Positions 4,343 to 30,793 of a stretch of 34,539 nucleotides of DNA are shown one piece after another; the stretch's first letter is position 1; each line of letters begins with the position of its first letter. Source of the DNA: a virus. Below the pieces are notes generated by a model. The model had not been told where the DNA came from. It did not search any database and saw only the letters and a list, made by a program, of their open reading frames with translations. The position numbers were made by a program, and so were the translations under genes. The stretch is taken from positions 1 to 34,539 of IMG/VR virus record IMGVR_UViG_3300043408_000084; one strand, written 5' to 3'.

Positions 4343-4769
4343 CTGCAACCCCGGGCAAAGCGAACGCCGCGACGATCCTCGAGCGCCACGTGTCATCTAG
4401 TTGATGCTCAACTACCGCACGCGCGGGAGCGCTTGCGTGAATGACTGAAAAGCCGCCGTAAAGATACGGGGCAACAAACGCTAGGTGAGTTGGGTTTTGC
4501 TCGAACCGCATTACAGCAACATCGCCAGCATCTAGGTCTGAAATATTGATGCGGGTCATGTAACGGGTACAGAGATCAATCATTGACCGGCCATCGGCCT
4601 GGCGATCATAAGGCGGGAGAGTGATGGACGTAATGAGCCCGACCTCTTTCGCCACCCCCGCGATTAAGCCCACACAATCACAAGCCGCCCCCTTGACACT
4701 GGCTTGATGCTGCCAGCGCGTGCCAATCCAGCCACGCGCAGCTTGCACAATGTCACCCCGGCTCGCCAT
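4335..4769 (-). CDS. Tail-tip NlpC/P60 cell-wall peptidase
   Basis: 144 residues, the usual size of the GTA gp14-like NlpC/P60 tail peptidases. The catalytic cysteine is in the motif ACDCVGLI (Cys32) and the catalytic histidine is in NPTHLAFV. The enzyme is expected to cut peptide cross-links of peptidoglycan during tail-tube penetration. It lies in the fixed order DUF2460, DUF2163, NlpC/P60, hub, and its start shares a base with the DUF2163 stop. It overlaps the GTG of the next gene by eight bases. Confidence 0.85.
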   Translation of the reverse strand: MASRGDIVQAARGWIGTRWQHQASVKGAACDCVGLIAGVAKEVGLITSITLPPYDRQADGRSMIDLCTRYMTRINISDLDAGDVAVMRFEQNPTHLAFVAPYLYGGFSVIHASAPARAVVEHQLDDTWRSRIVAAFALPGVAGE

Positions 4770-5611
4770 TACGTGCCACCGTAACGTAGGGTCTTATCGA
4801 CCCCCGGGACGTGGGGGAAGCCGCGGAAGTTGACAAGGTTGTTGAATTTGACCTTGCAGTGATCCGTCGTTTTGTTGCAGCCCTGGACGACCGAGAATTG
4901 ATCGCCGATCAAAACGTTAAACGGCATAGGCAAAAACAACGTGACGCCTCCAGAGCCCGTATTTGAGCGAACCTCCATTTGACGCCCGGTGTTTTGACCC
5001 GAGGTCCACGTCAAACGACCTCCGGCATAAACATCTACCGCACCGACCAAAGCAGACGCAACAAACTGCCGGTTATCAGTGACCGACGTGATAGTCCCTG
5101 TCCCGGTTACTCCGGCCAGATTGACGCCGCACCTAGAGTCACCCAGGTCAGCATCGCAGGTCGGTAAATAAGTCCGGGTGATGGTCCGCTGTAGCGCGTT
5201 CATCAGCCCCCTAACCTCGACCTGCCAAGAACCTTTTGATCTAGAGACCTCGCCGAATTGCCCAACGCGTAGGACCATCTCGCCCTGGGTCAGGTCGGAC
5301 ACATTAACGAGAGACACCCGCACTTGTGCGCCATCCCACAAGCCCGCCTCTAGGTCGGCCTCGGTGATATCTGGCCCGCTCAACAATCCCAGCACGTCAA
5401 GGTTATCCGTTGCCAAGTCGGAGGTGGATTCAACCGCTGACGCGCTGGCACCGGTTGCGGCTTTGTAAAGCACGCCGCTATACGAGATATCGATATCCGA
5501 GTCCGTGAATCCGAATACCTGTTGATCTCTGCGAGTGACGCGGACTATGGTCCTGATCGTCGTGACCGGCTGCGCGATATGACTAAGTAGACCAGCAGAA
5601 ATGCTCTTCAC
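4769..5611 (-). CDS. Tail-tip protein, DUF2163 (BR0599 family)
   Basis: 280 residues from a GTG start. The N-terminus (MKSISAGLLSHIAQPVTTIR) and the segment RDQQVFGFTDSDIDI match the DUF2163 opening, and the C-terminal half has the conserved cysteine cluster CDADLGDSRCGVNL and VVQGCNKTTDHCKVKF of the BR0599 family. In GTA-like tails this protein joins the distal tail ring to the hub. GTG at 5611 is preferred over the in-frame TTG at 5641 because it overlaps the preceding TGA as GTGA and yields the family's normal N-terminus. Confidence 0.85.
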   Translation of the reverse strand: MKSISAGLLSHIAQPVTTIRTIVRVTRRDQQVFGFTDSDIDISYSGVLYKAATGASASAVESTSDLATDNLDVLGLLSGPDITEADLEAGLWDGAQVRVSLVNVSDLTQGEMVLRVGQFGEVSRSKGSWQVEVRGLMNALQRTITRTYLPTCDADLGDSRCGVNLAGVTGTGTITSVTDNRQFVASALVGAVDVYAGGRLTWTSGQNTGRQMEVRSNTGSGGVTLFLPMPFNVLIGDQFSVVQGCNKTTDHCKVKFNNLVNFRGFPHVPGVDKTLRYGGT

Positions 5612-6510
5612 GTTCGCAGCTCGATCAAATTGGTCTGCCAACTGTAGAGCAGTTCATTTTGAGTTCGGTCGATAATCTGTATGCGCGCTTCGTCGGATTC
5701 AAAGCGGACCGGAACGTCGAACTCCCCCGACCACGTAAGGGCGTCTGTCGGCTGAGGGAAAAATCTAGCCGTCCCTCCGGTGGCAGTGAGTCCAGTGGTT
5801 GAGGTGCTAATCGTAATGTTAGCCCCACCCACACCAGTTACCGCATGGCTGCGCCCATTCAGAATGGTTGCAGCGGTGCCGGTCACACCCTCGATCCATA
5901 TGCGCCCGCCAAGGGCAAGATTAGGGGAAAAGGCGGTTGCCAGCGTCATGGCGTGCGTTGCGCCGACGGTGTGCGTATTGATTACGCGAGTCTGGTCATT
6001 GACAAACGTGATCACGCCTGTCGTTGTGTCAATTGAGATATTGCCGTTCGCCACGCCAACTGTGACCGGCGATCCGTTGCGCAAAACAATAACTGTCCCG
6101 GAGACCGGCTTGCGAATTCGGCGAGCCTCTGCAAACGTGCCAGACCCATAACGACGCATGAGCTGGTAGGTTGCTACGCCGTCACCTGTTCCAGGCGTGC
6201 CCTGGTCAATTGTGCCCAGGAAAGGTTGCAAAACGCCAGCGGTCGATGCAACTCGATAATCAGACCAATCTCTGAACCGAAACCCATAAGCCGCGCCGCG
6301 CATCATGCGGAAAAATGCGAGCAGCTCATCCTTTTGCGCTTCGGTTCTTGGGCTGTGGCTAATGTCGTATCTAGCCCTGGCTTGTGACCAGTTGATGTTT
6401 CGACTCTCGAATCCGGCGCGAACGGTAATGATGTCCGTGCTGTACCCCGGCCCACCACTGGCTTGCACCGATATCCGTTCCGGGAATCGCGGGGTTTCCA
6501 TGAAAGCCAT
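5608..6510 (-). CDS. Distal tail protein, DUF2460
   Basis: 300 residues. The N-terminal half has the DUF2460 landmarks METPRFPERIS and the FRMMRGAAYGFRFRDWSDYR segment; the C-terminus LLYSWQTNLIELR is also typical. The middle (about 150-250) is an extra threonine/glycine-rich beta segment, so the protein is longer than the usual ~210 residues. Expected role: ring at the distal end of the tail tube below the tape measure. It starts just after the tape-measure stop, with a weak GGA ribosome site, and overlaps the next gene by four bases. Confidence 0.85.
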   Translation of the reverse strand: MAFMETPRFPERISVQASGGPGYSTDIITVRAGFESRNINWSQARARYDISHSPRTEAQKDELLAFFRMMRGAAYGFRFRDWSDYRVASTAGVLQPFLGTIDQGTPGTGDGVATYQLMRRYGSGTFAEARRIRKPVSGTVIVLRNGSPVTVGVANGNISIDTTTGVITFVNDQTRVINTHTVGATHAMTLATAFSPNLALGGRIWIEGVTGTAATILNGRSHAVTGVGGANITISTSTTGLTATGGTARFFPQPTDALTWSGEFDVPVRFESDEARIQIIDRTQNELLYSWQTNLIELRT

Positions 6511-21022: not shown

Positions 21023-21447
21023 TACGGGCTCCACCCCTCGAACTCGATCCGTCCAGTCACGCCATCGGCTCGCTGCCGTTGCATCTTAGCCAGCTCGCCC
21101 CGGTAGTGCTTTGCGATCTCGCTGACCCGCTTTTTTACCCCGTAGGCGGGTCGGTTGCGGTCGTATGCCAATCGGTCTAGCTCGATCTCGGTGATGTACC
21201 GGAGCATCGTTTTGCGGTGCTCGTCCCGCTCCCGCGCCGTGAAACTGTGGCAACCGTAACACAAAGCCAGCAGGTTGGCCGAGTCAAACCGGGTAAACCA
21301 GTTTCCCCGGCTGTGATAGTGGGCAGCGTGTAGGCCGGCGCTGTTCTCCTGGTGCTTTGCTCCGCACCGGTCGCAGGTCCAGGCACTGCGCTCCCGGACG
21401 CACTTAGACAGTGCGGCGTCAGCAGTGGTGATCTTGATTAGACCCAC
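21022..21447 (-). CDS. NinG/Rap-like HNH nuclease
   Basis: 141 residues from GTG. CDRCGAKHQ, HAAHYHSRGNWFTRFDSANL and LALCYGCHSF give two CxxC zinc pairs framing an HxxH active site in the order seen in NinG/Rap Holliday-junction nucleases of lambdoid phages. Such proteins process recombination intermediates, in line with the Erf annealing protein at 27.3 kb. It could also be a general HNH nuclease. Overlaps the methyltransferase end by ten bases. Confidence 0.65.
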   Translation of the reverse strand: MGLIKITTADAALSKCVRERSAWTCDRCGAKHQENSAGLHAAHYHSRGNWFTRFDSANLLALCYGCHSFTARERDEHRKTMLRYITEIELDRLAYDRNRPAYGVKKRVSEIAKHYRGELAKMQRQRADGVTGRIEFEGWSP

Positions 21448-22205
21448 ATTGGCACCTGTTCGGGTTTCGGGGCGGGCTCTTGAAACAACTTGCCCTGCGC
21501 ATATGCCTGTTCAATGCGGCGGCAGGCAATGTCGAAGTAGCGCGGCTCGATCTCGATGCCGACGAACTTGCGGCCTAGCTGAGCGCAGGCGACTCCGGTT
21601 GTTCCACTGCCCATGAAGCAATCAAGCACCGCCGAGTCTGGCGCCGTGATGGTCTTGATCTGCCACCCCATCAAGGCCATCGGCTTTTGTGTCGGGTGAT
21701 CTTCCTTGCCAGGTTGCCCGTGCCTGTAGCTGTCGCAATCAAAGATGTTCGCCTCGCATTGGCCGCCGTTCCACGGGCGGCCCGGAAGATAGCCATAAAC
21801 GGAGCATTCGACGGCGCTTGAAAATCCAGACCCAGGCCCTGCGGGCGGCGGGAACTTCTTGCGCCAGAAAATAAGACGAGTCGAATATCCGGCTGCCTCA
21901 AGGGAATCAACAATCAGACCAATTTGACGGTGCCCGCACCATGCCGCAAACGAAAGCGGGCGTTTTTTTATGCACAGGTCCACAGCCACCGCAACGCGAG
22001 CTTTCATTCCCGGCCAATCGTCGTCGCCGGGAAAAAAATCAAGCCTTCGCACGCCTTTGCCTGGCTTATGGCGCTGCACGCTTCCTGCAACGCTAACCGC
22101 ATACGGCGGATCAGTAATCACCGCGTCCACTTTCGGCAGCGTCGGCAATATCTCTAGGCAATCGCCCAAGTACAGCGTCGCATCGCCTATTTGCTCGACC
22201 CTCAC
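21438..22205 (-). CDS. DNA methyltransferase, N6-adenine/N4-cytosine (beta class)
   Basis: 255 residues. The catalytic DPPY is at 32-35, HPTQKP at 170-175, and the SAM-binding DCFMGSGTTG at 195-204 with FVGIEIEPRYF after it. Catalytic motif before the SAM motif makes this the beta arrangement (N6_N4_Mtase). No partner restriction enzyme is nearby, so it is an orphan that may protect phage DNA from host restriction or mark it for packaging or replication control. Start is GTG at 22205. Target sequence cannot be read from the protein. Confidence 0.93.
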   Translation of the reverse strand: MRVEQIGDATLYLGDCLEILPTLPKVDAVITDPPYAVSVAGSVQRHKPGKGVRRLDFFPGDDDWPGMKARVAVAVDLCIKKRPLSFAAWCGHRQIGLIVDSLEAAGYSTRLIFWRKKFPPPAGPGSGFSSAVECSVYGYLPGRPWNGGQCEANIFDCDSYRHGQPGKEDHPTQKPMALMGWQIKTITAPDSAVLDCFMGSGTTGVACAQLGRKFVGIEIEPRYFDIACRRIEQAYAQGKLFQEPAPKPEQVPMWV

Positions 22206-22643: not shown

Positions 22644-22661
22644 GCCTAACTCTAGTTAGGC
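22644..22661. other. Collapsed attC-like site (R'' and R' only)
   Basis: GCCTAAC at 22644-22650 and GTTAGGC at 22655-22661 are separated by TCTA only. The two core motifs of an attC are present but the L arms and stem are missing. It forms the outer boundary of the left array, next to the stop of the 22663-22965 gene. TAGA-GTTAGGC on the minus strand matches the edge of the complete site at 30488-30544, which suggests loss of the stem from a once complete site. Confidence 0.65.
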
Positions 22662-22662
22662 A

Positions 22663-22965
22663 TCACCAAAGACGCCCCAGGCCGTGCATTGCAGCTTCTT
22701 CGCGGCTCACTTTGCGCACGCGAGAAAGCTCCTTCATGTAGCTTGGAGTCCCGGGCCACACCTTCACAACTATTTCTTTCCCGCCTTGGTAAAAGTCGCA
22801 GTCCGCAACGAACACGGCGGTTCGCCCGCACAGACTGCGGCTCATCAAGTTCAGCACGCCGTTCCAGCACGACAAATAGAACTCTTCCGCGTCGGCGCGA
22901 ATCTCCAAAACGTCGCCCCGCTTGGCGTTGTACCGGATGCCGTGGAAATCTTCGGTGTAGTTTAT
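22663..22965 (-). CDS. Cassette gene, unknown protein, with apparent ATA start
   Basis: 100 residues if read from ATA at 22965, 81 if from TTG at 22908. The longer frame reads NYTEDFHGIRYNAKRGDVLE and continues in balanced, host-like codons, with VADCDFYQGGKEIVVKVWPG in the middle. GGAG stands seven bases before the ATA, exactly where an ATG is expected, while the TTG has no ribosome site. The stop TGA lies at the edge of the collapsed attC. Function unknown; a plus-strand open frame at 22684-22992 is judged to be its shadow. Confidence 0.6.
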   Translation of the reverse strand: MNYTEDFHGIRYNAKRGDVLEIRADAEEFYLSCWNGVLNLMSRSLCGRTAVFVADCDFYQGGKEIVVKVWPGTPSYMKELSRVRKVSREEAAMHGLGRLW

Positions 22966-22986
22966 TGGGGTTCTCCAAAAGGCGAT

Positions 22987-23043
22987 GCCTAACTATCGGT
23001 TCAAGCGGACGCCGTGCCGGCGCCGCTTAACCTGGCGTTAGGC
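22987..23043 (+). other. attC-like recombination site B
   Basis: 57 bp. R'' GCCTAAC (22987-22993) and R' GTTAGGC (23037-23043) enclose arms GGTTCAAGCGG and CGCTTAACC with inner stem CGCCG/CGGCG and a TGC loop. The left arm holds an unpaired C and an unpaired A, as in aadA-type attC sites, which makes the plus strand the canonical top strand. It lies between two minus-strand genes, and the TAA stop of 23038-23328 is inside R'. Confidence 0.8.
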
Positions 23044-23328
23044 ATCAGGAACCACGCCTTGCACCAAGTGCGTCACATACCCCGGCATCGCCTGCGCGGG
23101 GCCGTGCTTCTTGGTGCAAGCGGCGCAGCGTTCGCGATCATCACCCACGCTCACATGTGAGTCTGGCACATGCACCCAGGAAGACCCGGGCTGCCCCGGC
23201 AGCACAAACCGGCCGCAGCAGTCGCAGCGGGTTTGCCACTTGGCATGCCACCCACGCGCCGGTTTTCTGTCGTCCGTCGCCATGTCGTTCATCCAGTCTT
23301 CGTAGCTGTGCCGCTCAAGTATTCGCAT
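23038..23328 (-). CDS. Cassette gene, small zinc-ribbon protein
   Basis: 96 residues from ATG at 23328, preceded by GAGGA (an in-frame GTG at 23349 has no ribosome site). TRCDCCGRFV and ERCAACTKKHG give two CxxC pairs, a likely zinc ribbon. HVPDSHVSVGDD lies between them. The stop TAA is part of the attC core GTTAGGC (read GCCTAAC on this strand). The gene fills the interval between sites B and A, so together with site A it makes a cassette-like unit of about 367 bp. Function unknown. Confidence 0.7.
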   Translation of the reverse strand: MRILERHSYEDWMNDMATDDRKPARGWHAKWQTRCDCCGRFVLPGQPGSSWVHVPDSHVSVGDDRERCAACTKKHGPAQAMPGYVTHLVQGVVPDA

Positions 23329-23353
23329 GGTTTCCTCGTCTTCCGCCACTGAT

Positions 23354-23411
23354 GCCTAACTACCTGTTCAAGGCGACGGCCTACGGCCGCGCCTTAACCT
23401 TTGCGTTAGGT
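23354..23411 (+). other. attC-like recombination site A
   Basis: 58 bp. R'' GCCTAAC (23354-23360) and R' GTTAGGT (23405-23411) enclose TTCAAGGCG and CGCCTTAA with inner stem CGGCC/GGCCG and a TAC loop. The unpaired C and A are in the left arm, again giving plus-strand canonical orientation. The stop of the replication-type gene 23406-24047 (TAA) lies inside R', so the site directly abuts the phage core genome. Confidence 0.8.
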
Positions 23412-24021
23412 CTCGTGGCACACCAAATCGCGCATCGAGTCGCGGACATGCGTAATGCGCAGCCCCGATCCTTCCCGGCCAATGGCCAGAACCCGCTGGC
23501 ATGCCTCCGGGTCGCCGATGAGCACGGGCGGCGCTACAGCCTGCCCTAGAACCCGATTCCCGGCCTCAAAGCGCCCGACAAGGCGCGGCGGGTACTCCGG
23601 TCGCTCCCGGCGCATCAAAAAGCCACGGTAGAGGGCCCCGAAGTCTCGGGCACGAAAAGGCAAGTCCACCTCCAGCGTGTCGCACAACTTGACCCATCCG
23701 CCCATGTCGTCGATGCAGCGGTGGATAAGCGCGTCATCGAACACAACCGACTCATGCCCGCCCACCCGCCGAATGGCCTTCTCGACCTTGGCCCAGGCTT
23801 GCATCGCGCTGTCCGCCGTTGTCCCGCCCAGCATACGGATGAGATCCGCCGGCTTGGGCAAAAACTGACCGGCATCCGGGTTTCGGACGTGCCGGTCGAA
23901 CGCTTGACGCACCGCTCCCAGGTCGTAGGGCGCCAATGCCGACCAGTAGATCGCAGACACCTCTGGCGTGATCTCCCGCCCGTAGACTGCCGCAACTGCC
24001 GACAGCATGGCGCCAAACGTG

Positions 24022-24047
<26 letters not shown>
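23406..24047 (-). CDS. DUF6475 protein of the replication module
   Basis: 213 residues. YWSALAPYDLGAVRQAFDRH, GQFLPKPADLIRMLGG and HESVVFDDALIHRCIDDMGG are conserved blocks of DUF6475 proteins, which follow DUF1376 proteins in many phages and may act as helicase loader or P-like partner (inference). ATG at 24047 lies ten bases after GGAG and overlaps the DUF1376 gene by 26 bases. The same frame is open upstream to 24533, through the heptamer repeat; see findings. Confidence 0.75.
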
Positions 24048-24777
<730 letters not shown>

Positions 24778-29190: not shown

Positions 29191-29209
29191 CGCCTAACGG
29201 AGAGCAACA

Positions 29210-29567: not shown

Positions 29568-30163
29568 TGACAACGCTAGAAACCGCGCTACTGCTGATTA
29601 TCTGTGCTGCCGCGCTGGCAGTGCTAGGGCCGCGGCGCGAACGCACAAACCGAAACCCGCCGCCGACCTACCCGAGGCCGCCAGCGCCACCTGCACCGCC
29701 ACTGATGCGCCCGCAAGGAGCAAAGATGACCAAACAAGCAACGCCGCGCGAGGTCGGCTCGCACGCAGGGTTAGGCCCGCTGCCAAAAACTGAGTACACG
29801 CTGGCAAGCGGCTTTGCGGTCTCTCGGATGCCGGGCTACAGCGCCGACCAGATGCGCGCCTATCGGATCGCTGCTGCCGCCGTGGCCGGCCCCGATGGGT
29901 CCGCGTTGAGCGAGGGGTTAGGCGCCGTCCTGACCTATGAAGACCAAGGCGGGCCCGGAGCGTGCGGGCAGACGATTGGTGCGGATGGTCGCGGGTGGTT
30001 CTCGGTGCTGTTCTACGGGACGCCGGATAACGCACAACGGGCCGCCGGCGAGTACCTGCGCGCTCTTCGAGCCTCGGGCCGGCGCATCAAGAGCGAATGC
30101 GTTGTGACCAATGAACACAGCTACTCCGGACCCAATGTGAGGGCCGTGGTGGTGGGAGCCTAA
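29567..30163 (+). CDS. Membrane-anchored protein with proline-rich linker
   Basis: 198 residues from ATG at 29567 (TAATG coupling). Residues 3-23 (TLETALLLIICAAALAVLGP) form a membrane segment or signal anchor, followed by a proline-rich linker (NPPPTYPRPPAPPAPP), then a globular domain beginning near the second ATG. That ATG, at 29726, has a strong AAGGAG ribosome site, so a 145-residue soluble form may also be made. The stop TAA lies in the attC core at 30158. Function unknown. Confidence 0.6.
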   Translation: MTTLETALLLIICAAALAVLGPRRERTNRNPPPTYPRPPAPPAPPLMRPQGAKMTKQATPREVGSHAGLGPLPKTEYTLASGFAVSRMPGYSADQMRAYRIAAAAVAGPDGSALSEGLGAVLTYEDQGGPGACGQTIGADGRGWFSVLFYGTPDNAQRAAGEYLRALRASGRRIKSECVVTNEHSYSGPNVRAVVVGA

Positions 30164-30260
30164 CGCTAGCTTGAGCCGACCGCAACAGGCCGAGGAAACA
30201 TGACCGAAGCGAACCAAACTAGCCGGCCTGTTGTGGGTCGGCTCGAAGCGCCAGTTAGGC
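30158..30260 (-). other. attC-like recombination site C (long form)
   Basis: 103 bp with GCCTAAC at 30158-30164 and GTTAGGC at 30254-30260. Arms GAGCCGACC/GGTCGGCTC and CAACAGGCC/GGCCTGTTG make a long stem around a 33-base loop. Unpaired bases (T and G) are all on the right side of the plus strand, so the canonical top strand is the minus strand. The loop carries the ribosome site and ATG of the 30200-30493 gene. Confidence 0.75.
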
Positions 30261-30493
30261 CCCGCGCTGCGTTCGAGGCGTGGATAAGCGCACCGCCATA
30301 CGAGCGGGAGGTGGAGCGCTTCGGGGAGAACAGCGCCTGGCCCGGCAACTACCGCGAGATTGATGTGGATCTAGCTTGGTGCGCTTGGTCTGCCGCGGTG
30401 GCGGCGACCCGCGAGCGGTGCGCGCAGATCGTGGAAGGCGTGCAGGGCTGGGAAGGCATACGGGAAACAGCGGCCCGTATTCGTGGGGCCTAA
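30200..30493 (+). CDS. Cassette gene, small phage protein
   Basis: 97 residues. The core is AAFEAWISAPPYEREVERFG, then DLAWCAWSAAVAATRERCAQ, a recurrent small phage protein type with partial match to the 29210 gene. ATG at 30200 with GAGGA is the only plausible start and sits in the loop of attC site C; the stop TAA is in the core of site D. Function unknown. Confidence 0.65.
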   Translation: MTEANQTSRPVVGRLEAPVRPRAAFEAWISAPPYEREVERFGENSAWPGNYREIDVDLAWCAWSAAVAATRERCAQIVEGVQGWEGIRETAARIRGA

Positions 30494-30544
30494 CGTCATG
30501 GTGAACGGCCCGCTTTAGCGGGTCCGTTCGACCTAGAGTTAGGC
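30488..30544 (-). other. attC-like recombination site D
   Basis: 57 bp with GCCTAAC at 30488-30494 and GTTAGGC at 30538-30544. Arms GGTGAACGG/CCGTTC-G-ACC and CCCGC/GCGGG with a TTTA loop. The unpaired T and G are on the right side of the plus strand, so this site is in minus-strand canonical orientation like site C. It separates two plus-strand small genes. Confidence 0.8.
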
Positions 30545-30564: not shown

Positions 30565-30792
30565 ATGGCTACCAAAAGGGCTAAGCGGCTTGCAGACTAC
30601 CTAGAAAACCAACTTGGCTGGGAAACGCATGGCGAAGGTTGGCAATGCAAGAACTGCGAACAGTGGGATTATATGAACAGCAAATTTTGCCGACATTGCG
30701 GCCATAGGCTACCAAAGAAGCCGACTAGACACGAGGAAGTGTTTGCGGAACTTGAGGCGGCCATTTCGCACGCGCTGGAAGAAGATGCCTAA
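30565..30792 (+). CDS. Cassette gene, zinc-ribbon protein
   Basis: 75 residues. WQCKNCEQWDYMNSKFCRHC is a clear zinc ribbon with two CxxC pairs. The N-terminus (KRAKRLADYLENQLGWETHG) is a basic helix and the C-terminus acidic (AISHALEEDA). AAAGGA precedes the ATG. The stop TAA is inside a bare GCCTAAC at 30787-30793 that also touches the spanin stop. With site D it makes a cassette-like unit of about 305 bp. Confidence 0.7.
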   Translation: MATKRAKRLADYLENQLGWETHGEGWQCKNCEQWDYMNSKFCRHCGHRLPKKPTRHEEVFAELEAAISHALEEDA

Positions 30793-30793
30793 C
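30787..30793. other. Bare attC core motif at the array edge
   Basis: GCCTAAC with no stem beside it. It is the outer edge of the right array, matching the collapsed site that bounds the left array. It contains the TAA stop of the 30565 gene and its last base begins the (reverse) stop of the spanin gene. Confidence 0.5.

Follow-up and report, generated by a model that had tools for sequence, protein, structure and literature searches.

Antiparallel gene cassettes in the attC arrays of a phage contig point to an integron family of phages

The window analyzed here is the whole IMG/VR virus record IMGVR_UViG_3300043408_000084 (34,539 nt), a 34.5-kb contig with genes for a large terminase, portal, major head and tail proteins and also for an Erf-like annealing protein and an Rz-like spanin. 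The closest named terminase was 64% identical to that of the window and came from a Pseudomonas phage. Two blocks of small genes interleaved with hairpin sites were found. The left array opens with an 18-bp palindrome, GCCTAAC-TCTA-GTTAGGC (22644–22661; no strand assigned), made of two inverted R-type boxes with a 4-nt spacer. It is followed by cassette gene 1 (~22663–22965, − strand, ~100 aa), a 57-nt site (attC1, 22987–23043), cassette gene 2 (23038–23349, − strand, 103 aa, cysteine-rich) and a 58-nt site (attC2, 23354–23411); both genes are without an assigned function and both sites lie on the + strand, opposite to the genes. The stop codon of cassette gene 2 falls within the R' box of attC1, and that of the DUF6475 gene (− strand; 23406–24533 for the reading frame as listed; Pfam PF20081, E = 5.7e-31, conserved part from ~24050) falls within the R' box of attC2, where it marks the array's border. 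An N6_N4 methylase gene at 21438–22205 adjoins the left array, and a short tandem repeat of TCTGGTG is located at 24374–24400 within overlapping DUF1376 and DUF6475 frames.

Codon positions support the two genes. A homologue of cassette gene 1 in L135/L147 (89–92% identical) differs from it 7/4/32 times over the three codon positions, with homology that stops exactly at GCCTAAC and an ATG in the place of an ATA in the window. Relatives of cassette gene 2 were found in 12 viral contigs with identities of at most 91% over most of the protein, and comparison with a relative gave differences of 4/2/23, mainly at the third position. Since third-position differences dominate in the − frame for both, we regarded both as real coding sequences. 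An earlier reading made from the letters alone, hereafter the sequence-only reading, had assigned one gene to each interval; this stands, except that the 108-aa reading frame listed at 22652–22978 is the wrong frame, the true gene being that at ~22663–22965 on the − strand. DNA BLAST searches with the left block and with window positions 1–24500 found no match among 50,697 phage records, and the proteins of cassette gene 2 and of the right-array gene at 30200–30493 had no match in the same records, so that none of those records carries either gene.

The right array has the opposite orientation, with attC sites on the − strand and genes on the + strand. Its first site (30158–30260, 103 nt) contains the start codon of the next gene (30200–30493, 97 aa), whose N-terminus is translated from the attC arm (MTEANQTSRPVVGRLEAPVRP at 30200) and whose product has a 78% identical relative two places from intI in the array of contig 3300042939_000785. 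The second site (30488–30544, 57 nt) precedes a gene of 75 aa (30565–30792) that is zinc-ribbon-like by weak matches and whose stop codon lies in the GCCTAAC at 30787–30793, an R box without a hairpin partner that ends the array. Long attC sites of ~90–130 nt (30158–30260 in the window; also in L007, L013, L095 and L098) often hold the start codon of the gene that follows, and translation of the arm gives a recurrent N-terminal leader, (A)VAG.VEP.VRP; the attC body therefore codes for protein in these cases. Lone R boxes (GCCTAAC or GTTAGGC) without an attC hairpin were also observed at gene borders, at 29192, 29770, 29917 and 30787 in the window and in L003 (814–1676), and GCCTAAC was strongly over-represented in the window (17 occurrences, 3.65 expected).

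We evaluated the hairpin sites with a covariance model, R1, built without phage training from 12 attC sites, which came from class 1 integrons of plasmids and from one bacterial-type integron. With filters off, R1 reported four sites in the window, attC1 at 53.3 bits (E = 2.6e-11; other strand 14.5), attC2 at 49.9 bits (E = 2e-10; other strand 10.5) and the right-array sites at lower scores than the left-array sites, 35.8 bits for 30488–30544 (E = 7.5e-7; other strand 18.5) and 30.8 bits for 30158–30260 (E = 1.4e-5), and what ranked next was the 18-bp palindrome together with weak hits to the reverse strands of the four sites. All four scored at least 15 bits lower on the other strand and their polarity was hence clear. 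Each is bounded by complementary R''/R' boxes of the form RYYYAAC/GTTRRRY, and in all of them R1 recognized L''/L' arms, one of which carries extrahelical bases (30.8–53.3 bits). No hairpin site above threshold was found in 30 Markov-shuffled copies of the window, and single-strand DNA folds of the sites were well beyond those of shuffled sequence (z of about −4 to −5, with −5 for attC1 and −5.8 for 30158–30260). The sequence-only reading had placed two complete attC sites at 22987–23043 and 23354–23411 with R''/R' cores, paired arms, a 3-base loop and two unpaired bases, and the coordinates and all of these elements proved right, with 7-nt boxes, L''/L' arms, a 3-nt loop and the two unpaired bases on the 5' arm of the + strand. 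It had also called the layout aadA-type, which holds for the form of the attC sites but not for the cassettes, whose genes are antiparallel to their attC in both arrays, unlike a canonical cassette, in which gene and attC are parallel. No TIGR02249 match was present in the record, which may be incomplete; this agrees with the absence of an integron integrase already noted from the letters, and the element is accordingly not a complete integron with its own intI. With two close attC sites on the left and two on the right, the sites are, as judged from form and score, genuine attC, and the window is a cassette array without integrase (CALIN).

We also considered that the hairpins are RNA elements, such as terminators or translation regulators, that merely resemble attC. 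The genes on either side of them do run in one direction, and the start codon at 30200 is inside a hairpin, but an RNA role predicts neither a 50-bit match to bacterial attC, nor strand-specific unpaired bases, nor replacement that ends at an R box, and no Rfam family matched at the sites; we consider this explanation very improbable.

The antiparallel arrangement was then compared with other arrays. A gene-blind attC pattern gave at least 120 viral stretches, 79 of which were searched with R1, on contigs that, like those behind the other viral counts, are metagenomic and often partial. Codon usage in the intervals between the R1 sites placed 113 genes opposite to their attC and 1 in the same direction, with 55 unclear; an earlier viral set gave 51 opposite and 1 same, and viral contigs with intI gave 54 and 1, which makes 218 opposite to 3 same for the three sets pooled, across dozens of environmental contigs, a few of which were counted in two sets. 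As an independent sign we took an ATG accompanied by a Shine-Dalgarno sequence: 215 intervals had one solely on the strand opposite to the attC, and a single interval had one solely on the attC strand. As controls, plasmid attC sites had the same direction as the annotated genes, bacterial integrons scored by longest reading frame gave 30 same and 6 opposite, and the sole attC detected by R1 in phage TJE1 was parallel to its gene. The best control was Thermomonas sp. S9, in which both layouts occur in one genome: a chromosomal integron with intI on the − strand, 17 attC on the + strand and genes mostly on the + strand, and a prophage-like array with genes on the + strand, all 7 attC sites on the − strand and a 61% identical relative of cassette gene 2. 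The latter array lies beside a serine recombinase and adjoins ordinary chromosomal genes. Polarity by longest reading frame, tried on viral DNA, gave 43 opposite, 18 same and 28 unclear and was rejected as noisy in GC-rich DNA; codon usage, Shine-Dalgarno and third-position tests were used for viral polarity in its place. In bacterial arrays the Shine-Dalgarno test found 7 same only, 5 opposite only and 33 neither, and the phage-trained codon model failed on L012, so that the bacterial controls are based on annotation and reading-frame length.

These counts bear on a second explanation, that the arrays are ordinary bacterial integron cassettes captured through a host IntI. A window attC is close to a plasmid attC (76% over 96% of the site), phage CALINs and the work of phage attC with IntI1 have been published (PMC9892861), and Thermomonas, host of the related prophage array, has a chromosomal integron. 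A normal cassette, however, stays parallel to its attC whichever way it is inserted, whereas nearly every viral interval is antiparallel, and cassette gene 2 was found in only 1 of 84,980 species genomes, where the copy is in a prophage. Capture from a host is in our estimate improbable.

Comparison with relatives revealed replacement at the array borders. L003/L004 were 91–93% identical to the window as far as 23406, within the R' box that holds the DUF6475 stop codon; identity resumed, at 93%, at 22661, where the palindrome ends, and between these positions three other small genes replaced the block of the window. Still other genes and a 102-nt attC were found beside the DUF6475 gene in L025 (terminase 82% identical), the only one of 79 terminase-related phage loci, many of them fragments, with an attC. 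L009 matched the window over 122 nt that comprise the start of cassette gene 2 and an attC2 of identical sequence, and then switched inside the R' box to a different gene, a relative of the window gene at 29.5–30.2 kb. In L101, a relative of the 29.2-kb gene of the window adjoins cassette gene 2, with the junction at the R-box position. The junctions in L003/L004, L009 and L101 are consistent with R' cutting, and together they indicate that the left block is exchanged as cassettes. The limits proposed for two cassettes in the sequence-only reading, the 18-bp site and the DUF6475 stop codon, are exactly where relatives turn over. That reading had named a lack of covariance-model hits, or genes constantly present in relatives with diverged hairpins of no attC form, as grounds against it; the model gave strong matches and the genes are replaced in relatives, so that its observation is confirmed and its interpretation partly supported.

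The same cassette gene was also seen with different attC bodies, with homology resuming at the R'' box (L135/L147 against 22644–23050; L096 and L102 against 23035–23411). By their sequence exchanges seem to occur at the R'' box as well, and the genes with differing attC bodies are not explained by R' cutting alone. Within the array of L003, the 35 bases that end the DUF6475 gene recur at positions 1342–1376 (97% identical to window 23406–23440), as though a cassette had carried off the end of the neighboring gene.

Junctions of this kind could also be spread by homologous recombination, since the window encodes an Erf-like annealing protein. In its full form, this explanation holds that all swaps are homologous or annealing events at short R-box hairpins and that the attC sites are inherited remnants with no current integrase action. 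We think it unlikely, albeit somewhat less so than capture from a host: R-box junctions without a hairpin at 29192, 30787 and in L003 fit it, as do the Erf-like gene itself and the exchange of attC bodies while genes stay, but the strand-specific unpaired bases and the pairing needed for IntI are kept across large divergence in sequence, in which both members of base pairs have changed, and an intact intI beside such arrays is common.

Integrases of this kind were found in viral contigs. An IntI search of 49 records gave two viral contigs with IntI and inverted arrays and one bacterial-type integron, and a wider search found IntI relatives encoded in 56 viral contigs. In 28 of the 56, attC sites were located upstream of intI and pointed away from it as in any integron, with genes pointing towards intI. 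The two phage IntI proteins tested matched TIGR02249 at 428 bits (cut-off 265), and phage IntI is 53% identical to IntI1, with which it aligns over a retained integron-specific segment. In a tree of the viral integrases, 30 integrases from a class-wide genome sample of one class and a few others, 36 viral integrases formed a single clade (SH-aLRT 99 in this sampled tree); the IntI1-like proteins of viral contigs L268–L270, L272 and L288 belong to class 1 integrons and were set apart. Of 31 contigs with IntI, 9 encoded a portal protein with TerL_ATPase and 10 a GpA-type terminase (a terminase or portal in 19 of 31), which represent two unrelated phage packaging types. Between the last gene and intI we found a conserved stretch, CnnnAATTCGACCGC-N6-GCGGCGTAACACC, and across ten loci the mean identity fell from 73% on the intI side of TAA|C to 36% on the cassette side, as expected of an attI beside changing cassettes; this stretch is a candidate attI. 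The motif alone matched 19 viral contigs, several of them outside the IntI list. Virus Rctr41k (L298, KX853513) encodes an IntI-like protein annotated as xerD (4680–5678) in a record where R1 finds no attC; it may hold a divergent array. DNA methyltransferases of N6_N4_Mtase and C-5 types recur in or beside inverted arrays (L095 4607–5461, L184 4377–5915, L117 10350–11153 and L256 5617–6303).

The + polarity of the left attC sites places the attI end of the left array at the palindrome, 22644–22661, which is kept in L003/L004. We take it to look like the simple site of an attI. The motif of the phage IntI clade was absent from the palindrome and from the window, and the sequence therefore gives no support to the palindrome being the attI of that clade. 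The sequence-only reading had described a collapsed attC site; the perfect GCCTAAC/GTTAGGC palindrome is as it described, but at 16.9 bits with R1 it is no full attC, and its position at the attI end makes a collapsed attC one reading only. Judging from the letters, it could be either an attI-like simple site or an attC remnant. Inverted boxes (GTTRRRY) at a CALIN border were noted by Qi et al. (PMC9892861).

In our assessment, the left block and that at 30.2–30.8 kb are very likely cassette arrays that belong to an inverted-cassette family of phage integrons and lack the integrase here. Counting against this reading are the lack of an integrase and of the phage attI motif in the window, the differing attC bodies and the lower scores of the right-array sites. 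As in bacterial integrons, and on the basis of integron knowledge and the shared anatomy, IntI would bind the folded attC strand and join the R' box (G|TTAGGC) to attI or to another attC. With the gene reversed relative to its attC, the gene strand would read attC, ribosome-binding site and gene, with the stop codon in or beside the next R box; the cassette next to attI is then the last gene before intI. A phage promoter at the far end of the array could express the cassettes and intI as one operon with no Pc promoter. Such an operon would replace Pc and explain the polarity; alternatively, the polarity may reflect an effect of the replication strand on how attC folds. Because the window lacks the integrase, any present mobility needs IntI in trans, which would be supplied by a co-infecting or resident phage integron or by a host integron. 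The insertion of the cassettes by a host enzyme, proposed in the sequence-only reading, is therefore a possible source but not the sole candidate, given that related phages encode IntI beside arrays of the same type.

More broadly, environmental tailed phages from two or more packaging lineages that are not related probably have a dedicated integron system, with its own IntI clade, attI and pool of inverted-gene cassettes, that swaps small accessory genes in a phage operon (DNA methyltransferases among them), the window being an integrase-less user of that pool. In short, gene shuffling in phages seems to be served by a system of their own. The common view takes integrons as platforms of bacteria that phages capture now and then; if true, an integron that belongs to phages, is widespread and has reversed cassettes would let phage genomes become mosaic in a site-specific way. 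The list of swappable small genes would offer good candidates for counter-defence functions, and both cassette shuffling by phage IntI and the cause of the reversed polarity would become directly testable.

In text searches that covered mainly openly accessible journal papers, we found neither an integron family belonging to phages nor cassettes in reversed orientation described, and the family, which is large, is apparently undescribed so far. Occurrence of attC in phages had been noted before, as the sequence-only reading also supposed, and attC sites and CALINs of phages are published (PMC9892861), so that the apparent novelty is the inverted-cassette family. The published CALINs, for example those of Tetrasphaera phage TJE1 and Pseudoalteromonas PH101 (Qi et al. 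2023, PMC9892861), are like the window in being integrase-less attC arrays in phage genomes whose intervals each hold one small gene; IntI1 has also been reported to act on phage attC (PMC9892861). Unlike for the window, no reversed-gene family and no cassette pool common with intI-bearing phages were described for them. Complete integrons captured by phages are known from Vibrio anguillarum prophages, P1 with class 1 integrons and Shewanella M16-3 (PMC9892861); they share IntI and attC on a phage genome with the phage family, but they are pieces of host or class 1 integrons (PMC9892861), whereas the phage family has its own viral IntI clade, attI motif and inverted cassettes. Class 1 and chromosomal integrons share with the phage family the intI | attI | attC geometry and the aadA-type attC, but in the phage family the genes point towards intI rather than away from it and the attI sequence is different.
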